DNA from: Sphaerisporangium corydalis | GTDB taxonomy: Bacteria > Actinomycetota > Actinomycetes > Streptosporangiales > Streptosporangiaceae | Reading direction: 5' to 3' | NCBI RefSeq assembly: GCF_025506355.1 | Contig: NZ_JANZYP010000002.1 | Span: 1 to 64,000 of the forward strand | Length of the DNA stretch: 64,000 bases | In this document: positions 3,951 through 49,798 of the stretch, piece by piece | How positions within the stretch are numbered: the stretch's first letter is position 1 | How the letters are laid out: the number at the start of each line of letters is the position of its first letter | Notes under the pieces: generated by a model | The model's database searches: none | What the model was told of the DNA's origin: nothing | Seen by the model: the letters and a program-made list of their open reading frames with translations, nothing else | Program-made: the position numbers and the translations under genes

Positions 3951-4469
3951 TCATAGTTGCGGTTGCATGCCCGCCTGGCGGCGCTCGACCAGGACCATGT
4001 CGCCACGGAGCTTGGCCATGGCCCGCGACACCGTGCTCTTCACCGTCCCGATGCTGATCCCGAGGGCCTTGGCGATCTCCGGCTCGCTCATGTCCTCGTA
4101 GTACCGCAGCACGATCGCGGTGCGCTGGCGGGCGGGCAGCCGGTTGATGGCGTCCTCCAGCAGCTCGTGGATCTCGCCGGGGCTGGGGCCGTCCCTGACC
4201 GGCGCCTCGGGCAGTTCCTCCGAGGGGTACTCCTCCAGCTTCCTGCGCCGCCACCACGAGATGTTGATGTTGACCATCGCCCGGCGGACGTACCCGTCGA
4301 GCGCGGCGCGGTCGTTGATGCGGTCCCAGGCGAGGTAGGTCTTGGCCAGGGCGGCCTGCAGGAGATCCTCGGCGTCGGCGGGCTGACCGGTGAGCTGGTA
4401 GGCCACGCGCAGCAGCGCGGGACCGCGGGCCACCACGTACTCGCGGAACTCGTCGTCCTTACCGCTCAT
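3951..4469 (-). CDS. SigE-family ECF RNA polymerase sigma factor
   Basis: 172 aa. Region 2 includes LLRVAYQLTGQPADAEDLLQ, then WDRINDRAALDGYVRRAMVN. Region 4 carries LPARQRTAIVLRYYEDMSE and a helix-turn-helix ALGISIGTVKSTVSRAMAKL. The pattern fits the actinobacterial SigE subfamily (SigE70-like), whose members are often encoded without a cognate anti-sigma factor. None is visible here. ATG 4469 gives the standard N terminus (MSGKDDEFREYVVARGPAL). The gene is divergent from the Cys-rich/MauE pair, which could be a target, but there is no direct evidence for that. Confidence 0.9.
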   Translation of the reverse strand: MSGKDDEFREYVVARGPALLRVAYQLTGQPADAEDLLQAALAKTYLAWDRINDRAALDGYVRRAMVNINISWWRRRKLEEYPSEELPEAPVRDGPSPGEIHELLEDAINRLPARQRTAIVLRYYEDMSEPEIAKALGISIGTVKSTVSRAMAKLRGDMVLVERRQAGMQPQL

Positions 4470-4764: not shown

Positions 4765-5706
4765 ATGGGAGTTGAGCGTCGCTATGCACTGGCGTCCGCC
4801 GCACTCGGACGAAGCGCCGTACCACCACAGGCGGAGGAGGAAGAGCGCCCCGAGCTGACCGGGGTCACCGGCGAGATCCTCGACATCAGCCCGCACCTCA
4901 TCATCGTGGAGAACCCCGAGGGGGTCGAGGAGCGTCTGGTCATCGCGCCCTGGGCCACGGCCTGGCGGGGGCAGCAGGTCGGCCCATCCGGCCTGCCGAT
5001 CGGTTCCCGGGTCACGATCCGCGCCCGCCAGTCGGGCCGGGTGGCCGAGCGGCTCTGGGGCGACATCACCCGCGTCACCGGGGTGATCCTCTCCCTGGGC
5101 CGGGAGCGCAGGGACCTGACCATCGAGCTCGACTGCGGGCCGCACCGAGGGACGCGCAGCGTCGTCATACCGTACGGCGCCTCGGGGCGCATCCGGGTGC
5201 GGCACCCCCAGCTCCAGCCCGGCTACCTCTTCGACGCCATCGGCACGCGGCTGGACGGCGTGACGTTCGCCCAGCTCCCCGCGACGTCCCAGCCCGCCTA
5301 CCGGGCCCGATCGGTCCCGCCGCCCCCGCCCGCGTACGGCGGGGTGCAGTCGCGCATCTCCGGGGCGGCCGTCTGGTCGGACGCCTTCGACGACGGGGAG
5401 ACCGGCGCCGCGTATCCGATGTTGGAACGCGCCGATTCGGGATGCGACGACGCCGGGGTGTCGTGCACCGGCCTGCCCTACCTGGCGATCGGTTCGATGC
5501 TGTACGTGGGCAACGTGTGCGAGGGGCGCGCCGGGGTGATACCGATCGTCGCGTGCGGATGCGTCGCCGGGCGGTTCTGCGACCGGTGCGTCGAGTGCGG
5601 CACCTCCCCCCGGGGGCGGATCGTTGAGCTCTCCCCGGTCTCCTATGTCCAGCTCGGCGGGGACCTGGTCAAAGGCTGCTTCAACGCCCGCGTCGGACTG
5701 GGGTGA
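4765..5706 (+). CDS. Cys-rich protein of unknown function, coupled to MauE
   Basis: 313 aa, not assigned to a named family. Residues 30-170 look like small beta domains (VTGEILDISPHLIIVENPEG, then GSRVTIRARQSGRVAERLWG), possibly OB-like folds. A Pro-rich linker follows. The C-terminal 90 residues contain eight cysteines, with CGCVAGRFCDRCVECGTSP as the core and GRIVELSPVSYVQLGG, which vaguely recalls a double-psi barrel. No signal peptide is evident. ATG 4765 is chosen for GGGGAGGG 4 nt upstream; an ATG at 4726 lacks a site. The gene overlaps the next by 4 nt, so the two products are probably made together. The Cys pattern and the MauE partner point to a disulfide- or metal-related role, by inference. 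Confidence 0.75.
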   Translation: MGVERRYALASAALGRSAVPPQAEEEERPELTGVTGEILDISPHLIIVENPEGVEERLVIAPWATAWRGQQVGPSGLPIGSRVTIRARQSGRVAERLWGDITRVTGVILSLGRERRDLTIELDCGPHRGTRSVVIPYGASGRIRVRHPQLQPGYLFDAIGTRLDGVTFAQLPATSQPAYRARSVPPPPPAYGGVQSRISGAAVWSDAFDDGETGAAYPMLERADSGCDDAGVSCTGLPYLAIGSMLYVGNVCEGRAGVIPIVACGCVAGRFCDRCVECGTSPRGRIVELSPVSYVQLGGDLVKGCFNARVGLG

Positions 5707-6545
5707 CCATGGACGTCGTGACGCTCGCCACCGCCGCGCTCGCGCTTCTCGTGTTCCTGCTGCTTCTCGGTGGTACGGCGAAGCTCGCGACCGCCGGGAC
5801 CGACTCCGAGCCGGGCGGGCTCTCCCGTCTCGGCCCGGGGGTCCTGGTCCCCGAGCGGTGGCGCAAGCCCGTGATGATCTTCTGCTCCTTCGGTGAGGCC
5901 GTGCTCGCGGCCGGTCTGGTCTTCACGAGCAACCCGCTGCCCCGGTGGGGGACGATCGCGTTCTTCTCGGTGGCGACCTACGTCCTGTGGGAGCTGCGCC
6001 GACGGCGGCCGGACGTGGGGTGCGGCTGCTTCGGCGAGGCGAGCAGTGCCCCGGTCGGCCTGCGCTCGATCGGGCGGGCCGTCGTCCTGGCCGGTCTGGG
6101 GGTGGTCGTCGCGATCGTCCCGGTCTCGGGGGCCGACCTGCTGTCCGAGTTCTCGTGGGAGCTGGTGGCGGCGGTCGCCGTGGGCGCGGCCGTGCTGATG
6201 GTCCTCTCGCCCGAGCTGGAGGAGGGGATCGCGCGGGTACGGTACCGCGCGCCGTGCGAGCAGCGGCCGGTGTCCACGTCCCGGATCCTGTCCCGGCTGC
6301 GGTCGAGCGCCGAGTGGCGGTCGCACAACGAGCTGCTCACCGCCGCCGAGCCGGAGGACACCTGGCGGGAGCTGTGCTGGCGGTTCTTCGTCTATTCCGG
6401 GCGCACCGCGTCGGGCGCGCGGGCGGAGGTCGTCTTCGCGGTGTACCTCATCGGGCGGCGGCCGGCCGTACGGGTCGCCGTGGTGGAGACCGAGACGGCG
6501 GGCGACCCTCTTGTGAAATCTATCGGCCTATCGGCCACAGGCTAG
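5703..6545 (+). CDS. MauE/DoxX-like redox membrane protein
   Basis: 280 aa. The first 165 residues form four hydrophobic segments with a GCGCFGEASSAPV motif after an Arg-rich loop. This is the signature of the MauE-like proteins of actinobacteria, relatives of the membrane protein needed for disulfide formation in methylamine dehydrogenase. The C-terminal 110 residues are soluble and unassigned. GTG 5703 overlaps the upstream TGA (GTGA); ATG 5709 is an alternative. Coupling to a Cys-rich gene suggests it passes electrons to, or forms bonds in, that partner. Confidence 0.8.
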   Translation: MTMDVVTLATAALALLVFLLLLGGTAKLATAGTDSEPGGLSRLGPGVLVPERWRKPVMIFCSFGEAVLAAGLVFTSNPLPRWGTIAFFSVATYVLWELRRRRPDVGCGCFGEASSAPVGLRSIGRAVVLAGLGVVVAIVPVSGADLLSEFSWELVAAVAVGAAVLMVLSPELEEGIARVRYRAPCEQRPVSTSRILSRLRSSAEWRSHNELLTAAEPEDTWRELCWRFFVYSGRTASGARAEVVFAVYLIGRRPAVRVAVVETETAGDPLVKSIGLSATG

Positions 6546-6642
6546 AGAGCCTTAGATTCCCCGATCCGGACACGCGGACACGACCCCAGCACCCGGGGGT
6601 CGTGTCCGCGCGCCGCAGGAGCTCACGGCGTGGCGAATTCAT

Positions 6643-6686
6643 CTCTCTACGGCTCTCTAGCTTCCCCTCTAGAAAGCCGTAGAGAG
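6643..6686. repeat. 18-bp inverted repeat downstream of ATPase gene
   Basis: Arms ctctctacggctctctag (6643-6660) and ctagaaagccgtagagag (6669-6686) match at 17 of 18 positions around an 8-nt loop. It lies in the convergent gap between the MauE and ATPase genes, so a bidirectional terminator is the simplest reading. Its CCGTAGA word recurs at the other end of the ATPase gene. Confidence 0.75.
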
Positions 6687-6738
6687 GTCAATGGGGACGG
6701 GCGTGATCACCACGTCCGGCTTGGGGCTCCGGAGCGGC

Positions 6739-7920
6739 CTACAGCGGCTGCGCCCGGAGGAACTTTCCGAAGTGCGGCACGGTGAACGCGATGAAGCCGC
6801 GCTCGGCGCTGAAGATGAGTCCCTTCTTGATGAGGCTGTCACGGGCCGGGGACAGGCTGGACGGCTTGCGCCCGAGCAGCTCGGCCACGTCCGACGTCGG
6901 CACGGGCTCGTCGCCGACCGAGGCCATCGCGTGCATGTAGTCGCGCTCGGCGGGGGTGGCGCGCTCGTAGCGGCTTCCGAAGAACCCGACCGCGAGCTCC
7001 TCCTCGGCCTCGGGAGAGGCCACCCGTATGTCGTCGGCCGTGATCGGGCTGCCGGGCGCGAGATCCCAGACGACCTTGCCGTAGGCCTGGACGAAGTAGG
7101 GATAGCCGTCGGCCGCTTCGTACAGCGCGTCGAGGGCCTCCGGGGTGAACTCCACCTTCTCCCGCTCGGCGGGCGCGATGAGCGCGAGGTCGGCGGCCTC
7201 CCGGTCGAGCCGGTCGATGCGCGCGTAGCGGAAGAGGCGCTCGGAGTAGCTCTTGCTGGCGCTCAGCACGCTGGGAAGGTGGGGCAGGCCGGCACCGACC
7301 ACGATCAGCGGGCCGCCGCTCTGGGACAGCTCGTGGCAGGCGGCGCACAGCGCGGAGATGTCGGACGCCTGCACGTCCTGCATCTCGTCGATGAACAGGG
7401 CGACGCCGACGCCCAGGTCGGTCGCCACCGAGGCGGCGTCGACGAAGAGCTCGGTGAGGTCGATCTCCATGTCACCCGAGTCGGCCCGGCCCCTGCCCGC
7501 GGGCACGTCGATCGCCGGGGACCAGTGGGAGGTGCCCTTGGCCGCGCCGGGATCGCGCATGGCGAAGGCCTTGAGCACGCCGAGGAACTCCTCGATGCGC
7601 TCGGGCGCGCGGTGGCGGGGGGCCAGTTCGCGGATCGCCATGTGCAGGGCGGCGGCGACCGGTCGGCGGATCGACTGCTCGGGGCGGGCCTCGATCTTGC
7701 CGGTGCCCCACAGCCGCTGCATGGCCATGGACTTGAAGGTGTTGAGCAGCACGGTCTTGCCGACACCGCGCAGCCCGGTCAGGACCATGCTGCGCTCGGG
7801 GCGGCCACGGGCCACCCGCTCCAGCACGATCTCGAACTGCTGCAGCTCACGATCGCGCCCGGCGAGCTCCGGAGGGCGCTGCCCCGCACCGGGGGCGTAG
7901 GGATTGCGCACGGGGTCCAC
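6739..7920 (-). CDS. AAA+ ATPase of the Orc1/Cdc6-like type with winged-helix tail
   Basis: 393 aa from GTG 7920. Walker A is TGLRGVGKTVLLN near residue 50, Walker B is VALFIDEMQD near 205, and a sensor-1-like segment is PLIVVGAGLP. A lid region follows, and a C-terminal winged helix includes VAELLGRKPSSLSPARDSLI. The architecture matches a common actinobacterial group of unknown function annotated only as ATP-binding proteins. Conserved sequence starts at VDPVRNPYAPGAG, which supports GTG 7920. ATG 8052 would add an Arg-rich leader without similarity and would place a palindrome inside the gene. It stands alone, divergent from the M15 peptidase gene. Function cannot be stated beyond ATP-dependent action, possibly on DNA. 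Confidence 0.8.
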   Translation of the reverse strand: MDPVRNPYAPGAGQRPPELAGRDRELQQFEIVLERVARGRPERSMVLTGLRGVGKTVLLNTFKSMAMQRLWGTGKIEARPEQSIRRPVAAALHMAIRELAPRHRAPERIEEFLGVLKAFAMRDPGAAKGTSHWSPAIDVPAGRGRADSGDMEIDLTELFVDAASVATDLGVGVALFIDEMQDVQASDISALCAACHELSQSGGPLIVVGAGLPHLPSVLSASKSYSERLFRYARIDRLDREAADLALIAPAEREKVEFTPEALDALYEAADGYPYFVQAYGKVVWDLAPGSPITADDIRVASPEAEEELAVGFFGSRYERATPAERDYMHAMASVGDEPVPTSDVAELLGRKPSSLSPARDSLIKKGLIFSAERGFIAFTVPHFGKFLRAQPL

Positions 7921-7963
7921 GCTCTCGGACTTTATGACCGGATATAGCGGCCGTCCTAGATTT

Positions 7964-7981
7964 CCGTAGAAAGGGCTACGG
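7964..7981. promoter_or_regulatory. CCGTAG-CTACGG palindrome upstream of ATPase gene
   Basis: ccgtag (7964-7969) and ctacgg (7976-7981) form a palindrome with a 6-nt spacer, ending 44 bp upstream of the chosen GTG. The half-site matches the arms of the inverted repeat past the gene's 3' end. An operator is plausible; no binding protein is known. Confidence 0.4.
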
Positions 7982-8256
7982 CGTGTCGCGGACCGGCGGG
8001 TGGCGGGCGCCCGGCCGGGCATCCGCTGTGCGGGAGGCGAGAGCAACGCCATGGCACATCACCCCTCACCTGGACCTCTCGGCCCGAACCCCTGTTCGAT
8101 CCGATGGCCAAGACTGTAGCGCGCCCTCGAACACATGCGCGAGGTCTTTCGAGTAAAAGCCAGGGTACGGATCCCGATTCCCCTGCCACGCCGAGTCGGC
8201 GCGCCCGACATCACGATTGCGTCACGAGCGGCACCGGCGGGGCCTTACCCTGGCGT

Positions 8257-14901: not shown

Positions 14902-14991
14902 GGAGGGTTCGCATAGTGGACGAGTGCAGCCGCCTTGAAAGCGGCCAGGTCGGCGACGGCCTCGTGGGTTCGAATCCCACACCCTCCGCCA
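14902..14991 (+). tRNA. tRNA-Ser (anticodon TGA)
   Basis: GGAGGGT (14902-14908) pairs with ACCCTCC (14981-14987), and the discriminator is G. CCA is encoded at 14989-14991. The anticodon loop CTTGAAA gives TGA, reading UCA/UCG. A long variable arm and the T-loop GGTTCGAATCC are present. It is the second serine tRNA in the window and the only one here with an encoded CCA. Confidence 0.95.
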
Positions 14992-15022: not shown

Positions 15023-17601
15023 TCACGCCTGCGGGCCCCCGAAACCGTCGCCCACCGACGCGGCGAGCAGCAGGTAGGACTCCCGGGTGGCCGGCAGCAG
15101 GCGGTCGAGGTCGATCTCCGCGCCCTCCTCCAGGTGGGGGTCGTAGGGCACGCGGATGACGGCGCGGCAGCGGGCGGCGAAGTGCGCCTCCAGCCGGTCC
15201 AAATCGACGGTCGACTTCGAACGCGGGCGCACACTGCACAGCACCACCGTCGCGGCCTTCACCAGGTCGGCGTAGTGGTGCGCCTCCAGCCAGTCGAGGG
15301 TCGCCGACGCGGCACGCGCGCCGTCCACCGACGGTGAGCTGACCAGCACGAGCTGGTCGGCCAGGCCGAGGACGCCCGACATCGCGGAGTGCAGCAGGCC
15401 GGTGCCGCAGTCGGTGAGGCAGATCGAGTAGAAGTTCTCCAGGACCTGCGAGACCGACTGGTAGTCGGCGGCGCTGAACGCCTCCGACACCGAAGGATCG
15501 CGGTCGGAGGCAAGGATCTCCAGCCGCGAGGGCGCCTGCGAGGTGAACGCCCGGATGTCGACATACCGCTTGATCTGCTGCCGCTCGTTGAGCAGGTCGC
15601 GCACGGTCGCCGAGGTCTCCAGCTCGACCTTGTCCGACAGCGTCCCCCGGTCGGGGTTGGCGTCGACCGCGATCACCCGGTCGCCGCGCACCGACGCCAG
15701 CGTGGCCCCGAGCCCGACGGTCGTCGTGGTCTTGCCGACGCCGCCCTTGAGGCTGAGCACGGCCACGCGGTGGTGGCCGGTGGCGACGGGCGTACGGGCC
15801 CGTGTGAGCAGCTCGCGGCGGCGGCGCACCTCGGGGGACTCCCCCGGCTTGATGAGCCCGGCGGAGGCCTTGAACACGAGCTTGCGCCAGCCGCCCGCGG
15901 GAGCGTTCCTGCGGCCACGGAGCAGGGACACCGGGTCGAGGCTGTCGGCGGTCTGCCGCACCCCGGCCGTGCCCTTGGCGCCCGCCGCCTGCCGTCCAGG
16001 CGAGCCGAACGCGGGCTGCGGGGGCGGCGGGGGGGACTGGCGGCGGCGCGGCCGGTACGGCTCACGCTCCTCCAGCGGATCCTCCCGGGTCACCGGGCCG
16101 CTCTCCCTGGTCGCCGCCGGATCGGTTTCCCTGATCGGGGCCGGGTCGTTCTCCCTGGTCGCGGGCCCGGCGGCGGCGACCGCCGCGCGAGGCGGAGCGG
16201 CCGGAGCGGCGGAACCGAGGGAACCCCGGGAGGCGGGAGAACCGCCCTTACCCAGGGAGCCGGGGCCGAAGGGGTCGGCGGAGGCGGGGGGATCGACCGG
16301 GCCGGTGGGCGACTTCGGCTCGGCGACGGGCGCCGCTGCGCGGGCGGGGCCGCCTTCTCGGTCACCGGCTCGTACAGGACGTGCTCCACGCGGGGGACCA
16401 CGACGTCGTCGGTGTCGGCGCCGCCACCGGAGGCGAAGGAGCCGAAACGTTCCTGCGGGGCCTCGGGCTCGGCGGTCTCCACCGCGGGGAGCGCGGCCTC
16501 CAGCCAGCCGCGCACGGGCTGCTCGCCGGTGGTCTCGGCCTCCGGCTGCCGGAAGGGCTCGGGCTCCTCGTACGGCTCGGACCGCTCGTAGGACTCCGGT
16601 TCCTTGGGCGGTTCCGCGGCCTTGGGCGGCTTCCGCGCGTTCTCGCCGGAGGTGAGCGGGCCCGCCGGGATCCATCCGGAGGACGTGCCGCCGGGCGGCT
16701 CTTCGGTGAGCGAGCCGAAGGTGAAGCTGTCGGTGTCCTCGCTGACCCCCTGCCGCTCCTGGGCGGCCGGCGCGGCGGAGGACGGCTGGGGCGGCGAGGC
16801 GGGTCGCTCGCCGAACGCGCCCGCCCCCGAAGCGGGCCGCTCGCCGAACGCGCCGAGCCCCGGCGCGGGGGGGCGTTCGCCGAAGGCGCCCGACCCGGAG
16901 GACCGTTCCCCGAACGCGCCTGACGCGGCCGGTCCTGAGGACCGTTCCCCGAAGGCGCTGGATCCGGTGGCCGGTCCTGAGGACCGTTCCCCGAAGGCGC
17001 TGGATCCGGTGGCCGGTCCTGAGGACCGTTCCCCGAAGGCGCTGGAGCCGGGGGCCGGGGGCCGTTCGCCGAACGCGCCCGACCCCGCGGACGGCGCGCG
17101 GTCGCCGAAGGCGCCGCCCGTGGAGGACAGGCCGGAGCGGGACAGCGGCTCGGACGGCGCGTTGATCGGCGCGGAGAACGCGCCGCCGTCCCGCCCGCCG
17201 AGGTTTCCGGTGTCACGGCCACCTAGCGGGCCGGTGTCGCGGCCGCCGCGCGGGCCCGTGTCGCGCCCGGCCGGCTTGGCCGGGGGCTCGGACGGCGTGC
17301 CCCACGGGTCGCGGTCGCCGGACGGCCGGACCTCGGCGGTGTCGCCGTGGTCGCGCTCGCCCGTGTCGTCGGGCTGGGTGGAGCCGTGGAGGGGATCCCC
17401 CGCGGCGCGGAACAGCGGCGACGAGGCCGCCGGCGGGTCGGCCGGCACCATGGCCCAGGGGTCCTTGGGATATGGCGAGACGACGGTCTCGTCCGCGGTG
17501 ACGGTCACCTGGACGGGTGCTTCCTCCGTCTCCTTGATGGCGTCGAGCCACGCGAGCTGCTCTTCAAGAGAATGAGGATCCTCACGATCGTGCCTTGCCA
17601 C
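15023..17601 (-). pseudogene. EspI-like Pro-rich ParA/MinD ATPase, frameshifted
   Basis: GTG 17601 with GAGGGGG upstream opens a frame: MARHDREDPHSLEEQLAWLD, then a long Pro/Ser/Gly region with FGERSSGPATG-type repeats. It runs sensibly to EPVTEKAAPPAQ (about 16350). The continuation lies in another frame: PVAEPKSPTGPVDPP, a further Pro-rich stretch, then a ParA/MinD domain with deviant Walker A SLKGGVGKTTTTVG, VIAVDANPDRGTLSDKV and LTDCGTGLLHSAM. Together they make about 860 residues, the layout of EspI-like ATPases linked to ESX/type VII secretion. The shift falls in a G/C-rich run (16335-16375), so it may be a sequencing error or a true mutation. No ESX genes are adjacent. Confidence 0.7.
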
Positions 17602-28306: not shown

Positions 28307-29047
28307 TCAGCGGGAGCCGCGTACCGCGCCCTTGAGGTCGGCGAGCACGCGCTCGCGGGCCGCGATGGCCAGCGCGACGTCACGGAACTGCCGGGCGCGG
28401 TGGACCTGGGCGTGCCAGTCGGTGCCGGTCGCGCGGTGGGCCATCTCGACCTCGACCTCGACGACCCGGAAGCCCTTGCGCACCAGGTCGATCGTCAGGC
28501 CGGTCTCGACGCCGAAGCCGTGGGCCAGGGGGCGGGCCGCCTCGAACGCGGCCCGGGTCAGGCAGCGCTGCCCGTTGAGCGGCTGGCCGGCGTCCCAGCC
28601 GGAGGCGCGCTTGATGCCCTCGCGCGCCAGCCGCACGACGAAGCCGTGGCCGCCCAGCCTCACGCGCGTGGTGAACACGGCGATGCTCATGTCGGCCGTG
28701 CCGGCGCGCACGGGGTCGACCAGCGGCGCCGCCCTGCCCGCCGTCTCGGCCAGGTCGGCGTCGAGGAACAGCAGGTGGTGGGCCACCTCGCCGTCGAAGA
28801 GGCGCACGGCCTCGGCGCCGCTCTCCATGGCCGCCGCCTTGCCGCGGTTGCGGCTGTGGCGGACGACGCGCGCGCCCGCCGCCTTGGCGACCCTGCCCGT
28901 GTCGTCGAACGAGCCGTCGTCGACCACCATGACCAGGTCCACCCCGGGAATGGCCAGGGCGGCGGTCACGGTGGCGCCGATGCGGTCGGCCTCGTCCTTG
29001 GCCGGGATGATCACCGCTGTGTCGGGCTGTGCGGATGGGTCGCTCAT
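28307..29047 (-). CDS. GT2-family glycosyltransferase (polyprenyl-phosphate type)
   Basis: 246 aa. A GT-A fold is visible: AVIIPAKDEADRIGATV at residues 10-27, MVVDDGSFDDTGRVA, the metal-binding LLFLDADLAET, and QPLNGQRCLTRAAFEAA. It has no transmembrane tail. The group includes enzymes that charge polyprenyl phosphate with a sugar, which would supply donors for the two GT-C proteins next door. That link is inferred from position. The ribosome site GGACGAGGAGCG stands just before ATG 29047. Confidence 0.88.
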   Translation of the reverse strand: MSDPSAQPDTAVIIPAKDEADRIGATVTAALAIPGVDLVMVVDDGSFDDTGRVAKAAGARVVRHSRNRGKAAAMESGAEAVRLFDGEVAHHLLFLDADLAETAGRAAPLVDPVRAGTADMSIAVFTTRVRLGGHGFVVRLAREGIKRASGWDAGQPLNGQRCLTRAAFEAARPLAHGFGVETGLTIDLVRKGFRVVEVEVEMAHRATGTDWHAQVHRARQFRDVALAIAARERVLADLKGAVRGSR

Positions 29048-49709: not shown

Positions 49710-49715
49710 ACCGTG

Positions 49716-49798
49716 TGGGCGAGGAGGGATTTGAACCCTCACGTCCTTTCGGACACACGGACCTGAACCGTGCGCGTCTGCCGTTCCGCCACTCGCCC
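49716..49798 (-). tRNA. tRNA-Leu (anticodon CAG)
   Basis: GGGCGAG (49798 downward) pairs with CTCGCCC ending at 49717; the discriminator is A, as in leucine tRNAs. The anticodon loop TTCAGGT gives CAG, reading CUG, the main Leu codon here. A long variable arm (GTCCGAAAGGACG) and the T loop GGTTCAAATCC are clear. CCA is not encoded. Confidence 0.95.

Follow-up and report, generated by a model that had tools for sequence, protein, structure and literature searches.

Two adjacent genes on the plus strand, here called P1 and P2, were analysed in the window, which is the whole 64-kb stretch of DNA. The features at the locus are as follows.

3951-4469, minus strand: SigE-family ECF sigma factor, divergent neighbour (TIGR02983 SigE-fam_strep, 205.9 vs 141.55 bits)
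4765-5706, plus strand: P1, predicted OB-OB-DPBB fusion protein of 313 aa (ORF, family alignment, AF2)
4774-4812, plus strand: N-terminal twin-arginine stub of P1, residues 4-16, ERRYALASAALGR (hhalign)
4858-5280, plus strand: two predicted OB-type beta barrels of P1, residues ~32-172 (AF2 strands, VIA-align)
5353-5703, plus strand: predicted DPBB domain of P1 with nine cysteines, residues ~197-313 (Foldseek, VIA-align, paired cysteine change)
5703-6545, plus strand: P2, five-helix MauE-type membrane protein with an alpha/beta tail (PF07291, AF2, pairing)
6021-6029, plus strand: CGC core (C105, C107) of the GCGCFG loop between P2 helices 3 and 4
6252-6494, plus strand: P2 tail domain with C183 (6255-6257) and C223 (6375-6377)
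6573-6610, no strand: perfect inverted repeat after P2, 15 nt with an 8-nt loop, terminator-like
6739-8052, minus strand: AAA_16 ATPase on the other flank (Pfam)

The P1-P2 pair was confirmed as a real observation. P2 has 278 residues and two start candidates, GTG at 5703 and ATG at 5709. The GTG start gives the four-base overlap with P1 on which the initial annotation had based translational coupling, and the ATG start gives a 2-base gap. Among 80 relatives, with start codons picked by rule, the gap was -4 in 19 and between +2 and +8 in 35, with other values in the remaining 26. On these gaps, coupling is plausible, but the exact four-base overlap is not conserved. Inverted arms (94%) at 6541-6556 and 6646-6661 surround the end of P2, and a long imperfect inverted pair lies nearby at 6618-6711, besides the perfect hairpin. 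Elsewhere in the window, a MarR-type protein (1591-2229) carries a repetitive Gly-Ala-Val-Glu-Pro tail encoded by a 15-base unit repeated 9.7 times (2050-2192). Adjoining tandem repeats of 33 and 42 bases occupy 16794-17058. Three tRNA-Ser (gct, tga, cga) and one tRNA-Leu were found at 498-588, 14902-14991, 28508-28596 and 49715-49798.

Neither Pfam nor NCBIfam returned a match for P1 at E up to 1. Its AF2 model (pLDDT 78.3, pTM 0.81) predicts two OB domains in tandem, joined in one chain to a double-psi beta-barrel (DPBB). VIA-align placed the first OB barrel (residues 25-101) on CusF with Z 9.6, and the second (residues ~97-179) on PolD, PriB and SSB with Z 8.1-8.4. The double-psi barrel was present in the predicted structure of the C-terminal half, for which Foldseek returned kiwellin (7.2e-5) and PA4485 (6.3e-4). 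VIA-align aligned this half with PA4485 (Z 9.4, rmsd 1.9, 82 aligned) and with expansins, the best of which had Z 8.6-9.0 (3d30: Z 9.0, rmsd 2.7, 93 aligned). P1 did not reach the PF03330 (DPBB_1) cut-off, and the best of 29 P1 members stood at 0.0056. The Cys domain is nevertheless homologous to free-standing Cys-rich DPBB_1 proteins, which belong to the three-gene system described below. The initial annotation had described a domain of eight cysteines without a recognised family and had proposed a structure prediction for it. That prediction gave the DPBB fold, which together with the homology to the three-gene system rules out the lack of a family. The count was also revised, as P1 has cysteines at 124, 227, 234, 252, 264, 266, 272, 275, 278 and 305, nine in the C-terminal domain and C124 in the OB part. 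A fold common to P1 and other OB or DPBB proteins proves no function.

P2 scored 41.8 bits against MauE (PF07291; curated cut-off 27 bits, E 1.6e-10, residues 6-134 of 278), and 29 of 29 aligned P2 proteins matched this family at E up to 0.1. The original assignment of P2 as a MauE-like protein with a GCGCFG motif and a tail of about 110 residues thus held. The AF2 model of P2 had a pLDDT of 85.2. We take a Cys-x-Cys loop between helices 3 and 4 to be a defining trait of the MauE family, and P2 has this loop. C105 and C107 were present in 150/150 fused-type P2 and in all seven MauE proteins of the three-gene system. No Pfam family covers the tail. Its cysteines C183 and C223 were also present in 150/150 fused-type P2, and none of the seven three-gene MauE proteins has a cysteine at those columns. 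Five of the seven have a cysteine beyond the CGC pair, in four cases in the tail (L271, L274, L275, L221), and a cysteine in the tail is therefore not in itself peculiar to the pair. Structural matches of P2 were of no use for assigning a function. The best ones for the tail were weak (cystatin-like, Z 5.9), and Foldseek against the PDB gave nothing at E <= 0.001. VIA-align gave NACHO at Z 9.6, and its VKOR rows, at Z 5.2-5.6, were weak and too low to signify anything beyond a shared arrangement.

The charge distribution of P2 showed a clear bias. The mean number of K+R in 150 P2 was 4.8 in the first loop, 5.8 in the CGC loop and 4.0 after TM5, against 0.3 at the N-terminus, 1.1 in loop 2 and 0.4 in loop 4. 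The three-gene MauE proteins showed the same bias. Because the positive charges lie on the CGC loop and the tail, these segments are most likely on the cytoplasmic side, as judged from sequence. The NACHO and VKOR topologies would presumably place the CGC loop outside, contrary to the charge rule. This is the main conflict over the sidedness of P2.

The neighbourhood survey proposed in the initial annotation showed that P1 and P2 occur together. The P1 profile matched 287 of 297 genomes of the order, among them G038 and G039 only through unfused relatives, and found no match in the other 10. P2 was absent too from the four P1-negative genomes that were also searched for it (G012, G017, G037, G040). 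A set of 60 relatives contained 35 genomes with P1 and 35 with P2. P2 adjoined P1 on the same strand, with match ends at most 169 bases apart, in 34/34 genomes with a mostly full-length P1, including G023, where P1 was matched in two pieces. Two of the 60 were odd: G038 had a C-terminal P1 match only, and G024 had a P2 fragment close to the end of a contig of 3,185 bases. The pair was also adjacent in 41/41 genomes of the window's family (f1), out of 43 genomes chosen for a P1 match, and 80/80 named loci carried both genes. The sets of 34, 41 and 80 overlap and are not additive. The closest named loci were from Sphaerisporangium. Since the adjacency is conserved (34/34), chance pairing is excluded. 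In the window's family, a large group of soil actinomycetes, almost every sampled genome has the pair.

The cysteines of P1 were also conserved, so that neither of the two findings that would have spoken against the initial annotation, rare pairing and unconserved cysteines, was made. Cysteines 227, 234, 252, 264, 272, 275, 278 and 305 were each kept in 142 to 151 of 152 distinct P1. C266 (109/152) and C124 (85/152) were clade-specific. The association of C124 with C266 (phi 0.71) follows clades, and it was therefore not used as a disulfide claim. Changes were counted in the 152 P1 on a midpoint-rooted FastTree tree, where events were few. C234 and C272 changed on the same branch in three events, of four each, and one of the three was a regain. 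C252 and C278 changed on the same branch in two events, of two and three. C227, C264, C275 and C305 were lost jointly in one sequence. Single losses affected C234 in L175, C272 in L170, and C275 and C278 in L228. The joint changes are few but reflect more than relatedness alone. Because these cysteines change two by two on the same branches, they look disulfide-like, in agreement with the disulfides first proposed for the locus, and the paired change speaks for disulfides and against one metal site. C252, C264, C272 and C278 align with DPBB cysteines of the three-gene system, and C234 falls on C61 of that protein in one alignment and one column off in another.

Profiles built from fused sequences only pointed weakly but consistently to order-level relatives in G038 and G039. 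The E values were 5.6e-10 (G038) and 1.3e-6 (G039) for P1 and 5.1e-6 (G039) for P2, with no P2 match in G038. The operon in these two genomes comprises three genes (the trio), which encode a Cys-rich DPBB protein with 17 cysteines, a Tat-signal OB protein and a MauE protein with a similar tail. Against PF03330 (28.8 bits), the trio DPBB proteins of L273 (32.2) and L159 (33.7) passed and that of L274 (20.9) failed. Against the Tat signal model TIGR01409, the trio OB proteins of L159 and L221 passed and that of L274 failed (11.5 vs 16.7). The genome that contains the window also carries the trio, as do other members of f1, Nonomuraea gerenzanensis among them, and two genomes from a further family, f20. 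The gene order was identical in 12/12 loci with all three genes, and the trio models were built from seven of these twelve. In the window's own genome, the trio is a second copy of the system, located at L271:5940-7782 (G000:C84). G037 has genes for a Cys-rich DPBB and a Tat-OB protein, with no MauE gene in the 12-kb stretch around them (L278:5494-6536).

The trio is uncommon. It was detected in 20 of 150 order genomes at E < 1e-50. A mixed trio and fused model matched 42 of 394 class genomes, of which only the two f20 genomes lay outside f1. The trio DPBB model run over 396 phylum genomes matched the window's own genome alone. Among plasmid records, two queries gave one match each, both in a Nonomuraea gerenzanensis record with no gene annotated at that place. 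Two DPBB aspartates are present in 7/7 trio proteins, whereas the corresponding positions are Asp in just 9 and 16 of 152 P1. When a trio sequence was used as root, all 150 fused-type P2 grouped in one clade of the tree, free of trio members (support 0.79). The P1-P2 pair thus seems related to the exported three-gene system. The fused pair probably derived from the trio, a direction of descent that we infer.

A comparison of P1 with the trio Tat-OB protein showed what is left of the export signal. In hhalign, P1 residues 4-127 aligned with this protein (probability 97, E 1.2e-10), including the RRxxLxxAxLG pattern, and the gap in the alignment corresponds to the remaining part of the Tat signal peptide, which P1 is missing. 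R5, R6, G15 and R16 were invariant in 57 close sequences. The stub pattern was found in 99 of the 129 P1 with an anchor (152 in total), and some of the misses (L024, L025, L029) showed a looser RRR-x-A-x-LG by eye. Counted from RR onward, the stretch without charged residues never exceeded 9 residues in the 99 pattern-bearing P1, compared with 21 in four of the seven trio OB proteins. The remaining three have a charge close to RR, which halts the count at 2. In N-terminal windows of 17 residues, the KD hydropathy of the 152 P1 had a median of 0.44 and none reached 1.6, whereas the trio range was 1.36-1.76. Two P1 read from their furthest upstream start gave 1.52 and 1.37, within the trio range. 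TIGR01409 had no match in P1. P1 therefore has the twin-arginine stub only and not the hydrophobic core of a Tat substrate. The initial picture of a MauE protein serving a Cys-rich partner needs changing on this point: the pair is not simply a MauE protein with a secreted client, because P1 shows no signal peptide and the charges of P2 put its motif on the cytoplasmic side.

We consider it about an even chance that P1 and P2 constitute a thiol-disulfide unit of two dedicated partners, in which a MauE-type oxidoreductase acts on P1, probably at the cytoplasmic face. An exported trio would have given rise to P1 by fusion of its OB and DPBB proteins, with the signal losing its hydrophobic core and leaving the twin-arginine stub. 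P2 would be embedded in the membrane, and both its CGC loop and its tail would most likely face the cytoplasm. Electrons would then pass directly between the DPBB cysteine pairs of P1, C183/C223, the CGC pair of P2 and presumably a quinone, in a direction that may be either. The tail pair C183/C223 would serve as a shuttle. P1 would be oxidised at the membrane, or its redox state would be read out there, before any later action of P1. With no more than a stub of that signal left in P1, the pair may act from within the cell, forming disulfides or sensing them. It counts against this reading that cytosolic proteins seldom contain structural disulfides.

An alternative is that P1 continues to leave the cytoplasm, either by means of the stub or together with a different Tat cargo, and that P2 oxidises an extracytoplasmic Cys-rich DPBB protein, as in the trio. 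The strong conservation of the stub and the fit of paired, disulfide-like cysteines to an oxidising compartment favour export. The trio DPBB protein also has no signal of its own yet adjoins a Tat protein, and many of the DPBB matches are secreted proteins, for example kiwellin and expansins. The short uncharged run, the low N-terminal hydropathy and the missing TIGR01409 match argue against it, as do the positive charges on the CGC loop and tail of P2. We regard export of P1 as rather unlikely.

The thiol unit at the cytoplasmic face could be extended by a further speculation. MauE-type proteins might generally insert disulfides from the cytoplasmic face before export, and Tat would then export the folded client, with the DPBB protein riding with the Tat-OB protein. 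In the window's family, the cargo would have been fused and its signal cut to a stub, which would make it a permanent redox protein of the inner face, and P2 would have gained the cysteine shuttle in its tail. This scenario is doubtful, and we offer it as conjecture.

The flanking genes raise another possibility, in which P1 senses redox state or metal and thereby regulates the divergent SigE-family sigma factor, with the thiol state of P1 set by P2. The sigma factor, which the initial annotation had counted with the unit, belongs to the SigE family according to TIGR02983. At aligned positions it was kept in 105 of 112 loci, with at least two changes on the tree, and the AAA_16 ATPase came close behind (101 of 112; six changes or more); the 112 loci take in four with a long open frame overlapping P1. 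A separate count, made before both flanks were scored, found sigma in 130 of 137 loci, and AAA_16 stood beside the pair in 80/80 named loci. In the 32 loci with P1 below 60% identity, sigma was kept in 31 and AAA_16 in 21. The best genomic match to the window sigma in G031 and G061 was the neighbour of P1. The next best match in the window's own genome had 47% identity (33 matches including itself). By these sequence comparisons, the neighbour in G031 and G061 is the orthologue and not just any paralogue.

These counts favour a link with sigma, but the two flanks differ by few events. Sigma is missing beside the pair in L236 and in six loci from Herbidospora. In G037, from another family of the order, sigma and AAA_16 are direct neighbours without P1 and P2 (L283:4536-6701), and therefore the block can simply be inherited. 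P1 and P2 thus lie in a block passed on by descent, in which sigma is slightly stickier than AAA_16, and the tie to sigma is a lead. Upstream regions (148) showed C[AG]TGTGA near P1 in 85 and a different conserved block with CGAAAC and GGTTCAG on the sigma side (GGTTCAG in 56). No promoter motif common to the two sides was seen by eye in these regions, and we therefore make no regulon claim. P1 matches no anti-sigma family, since the Pfam and NCBIfam scans gave nothing for it at E up to 1. The idea of P1 as a zinc-binding anti-sigma factor was rejected for want of a profile match and because its fold is OB plus DPBB. Sigma as a partner of P1 and P2 is unproven, control of sigma by P1 seems improbable, and the AAA_16 ATPase is probably outside the unit.

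It is very unlikely that the P1 cysteines hold a metal (zinc, iron-sulfur or copper) while P2 has another job. The Cys-x2-Cys-x2-Cys spacing (FCDRCVEC) and the CusF-like first OB barrel (Z 9.6) would fit such a site. Against it, the cysteines change two by two while the rest stays, unlike one shared site, and the CusF match appears to be one of fold only.

P1 and P2 thus form a genuine lineage-wide thiol unit. The most fitting interpretation is a MauE system of derived type, in which the client no longer has its export signal, with mechanism and side as the conditional part of this reading. The four invariant cysteines of P2 and the two cysteine pairs of P1 are individually testable, and the three-gene version with a Tat signal provides a built-in comparison inside the same genome. 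To our knowledge, the chemistry and sidedness of the MauE family are unsettled. The pair would show whether MauE makes disulfides, and on which side of the membrane. It would also show whether an exported system can turn cytosolic by losing half a signal peptide.

Our literature searches returned no paper that we recognised as describing the fused pair or the trio, and at least some matches to MauE were an author's surname. Several known systems resemble parts of the pair. The DPBB_1 proteins RlpA, expansins and kiwellin are like the C-terminal half of P1 in fold. P1 differs from them in having no profile match and no signal peptide, and the aspartates of the trio are mostly lost in it. A Caulobacter ECF sigma regulon, as described in part of PMC3511200, contains a DoxX-family membrane protein, small conserved proteins, the membrane anti-sigma factor NrsF and DUF692. 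Its likeness to the window lies in the combination of an ECF sigma factor, a membrane protein and small conserved proteins; neither NrsF nor DUF692 was among the five window neighbours scanned.

In Streptomyces, a section of PMC7794033 describes clusters that combine a MauE homologue with a gene of eight or more cysteines, and reads them as candidate RiPP clusters of decRiPPter. As in the pair, a MauE homologue is clustered with a Cys-rich gene in an actinomycete; unlike the pair, the cluster is read as a RiPP. Going by that section, these clusters may equal the trio. The same section mentions the speculation that disulfides of methylamine dehydrogenase are formed by MauE. Among the five window neighbours scanned by Pfam, no mau genes (dehydrogenase, MauD) were found. 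Compared with the MauE/MauD maturation of methylamine dehydrogenase, P2 is likewise a MauE protein (PF07291) and likewise has a Cys-rich client, but P2 carries an extra tail with two invariant cysteines, and its client is an OB-DPBB protein.
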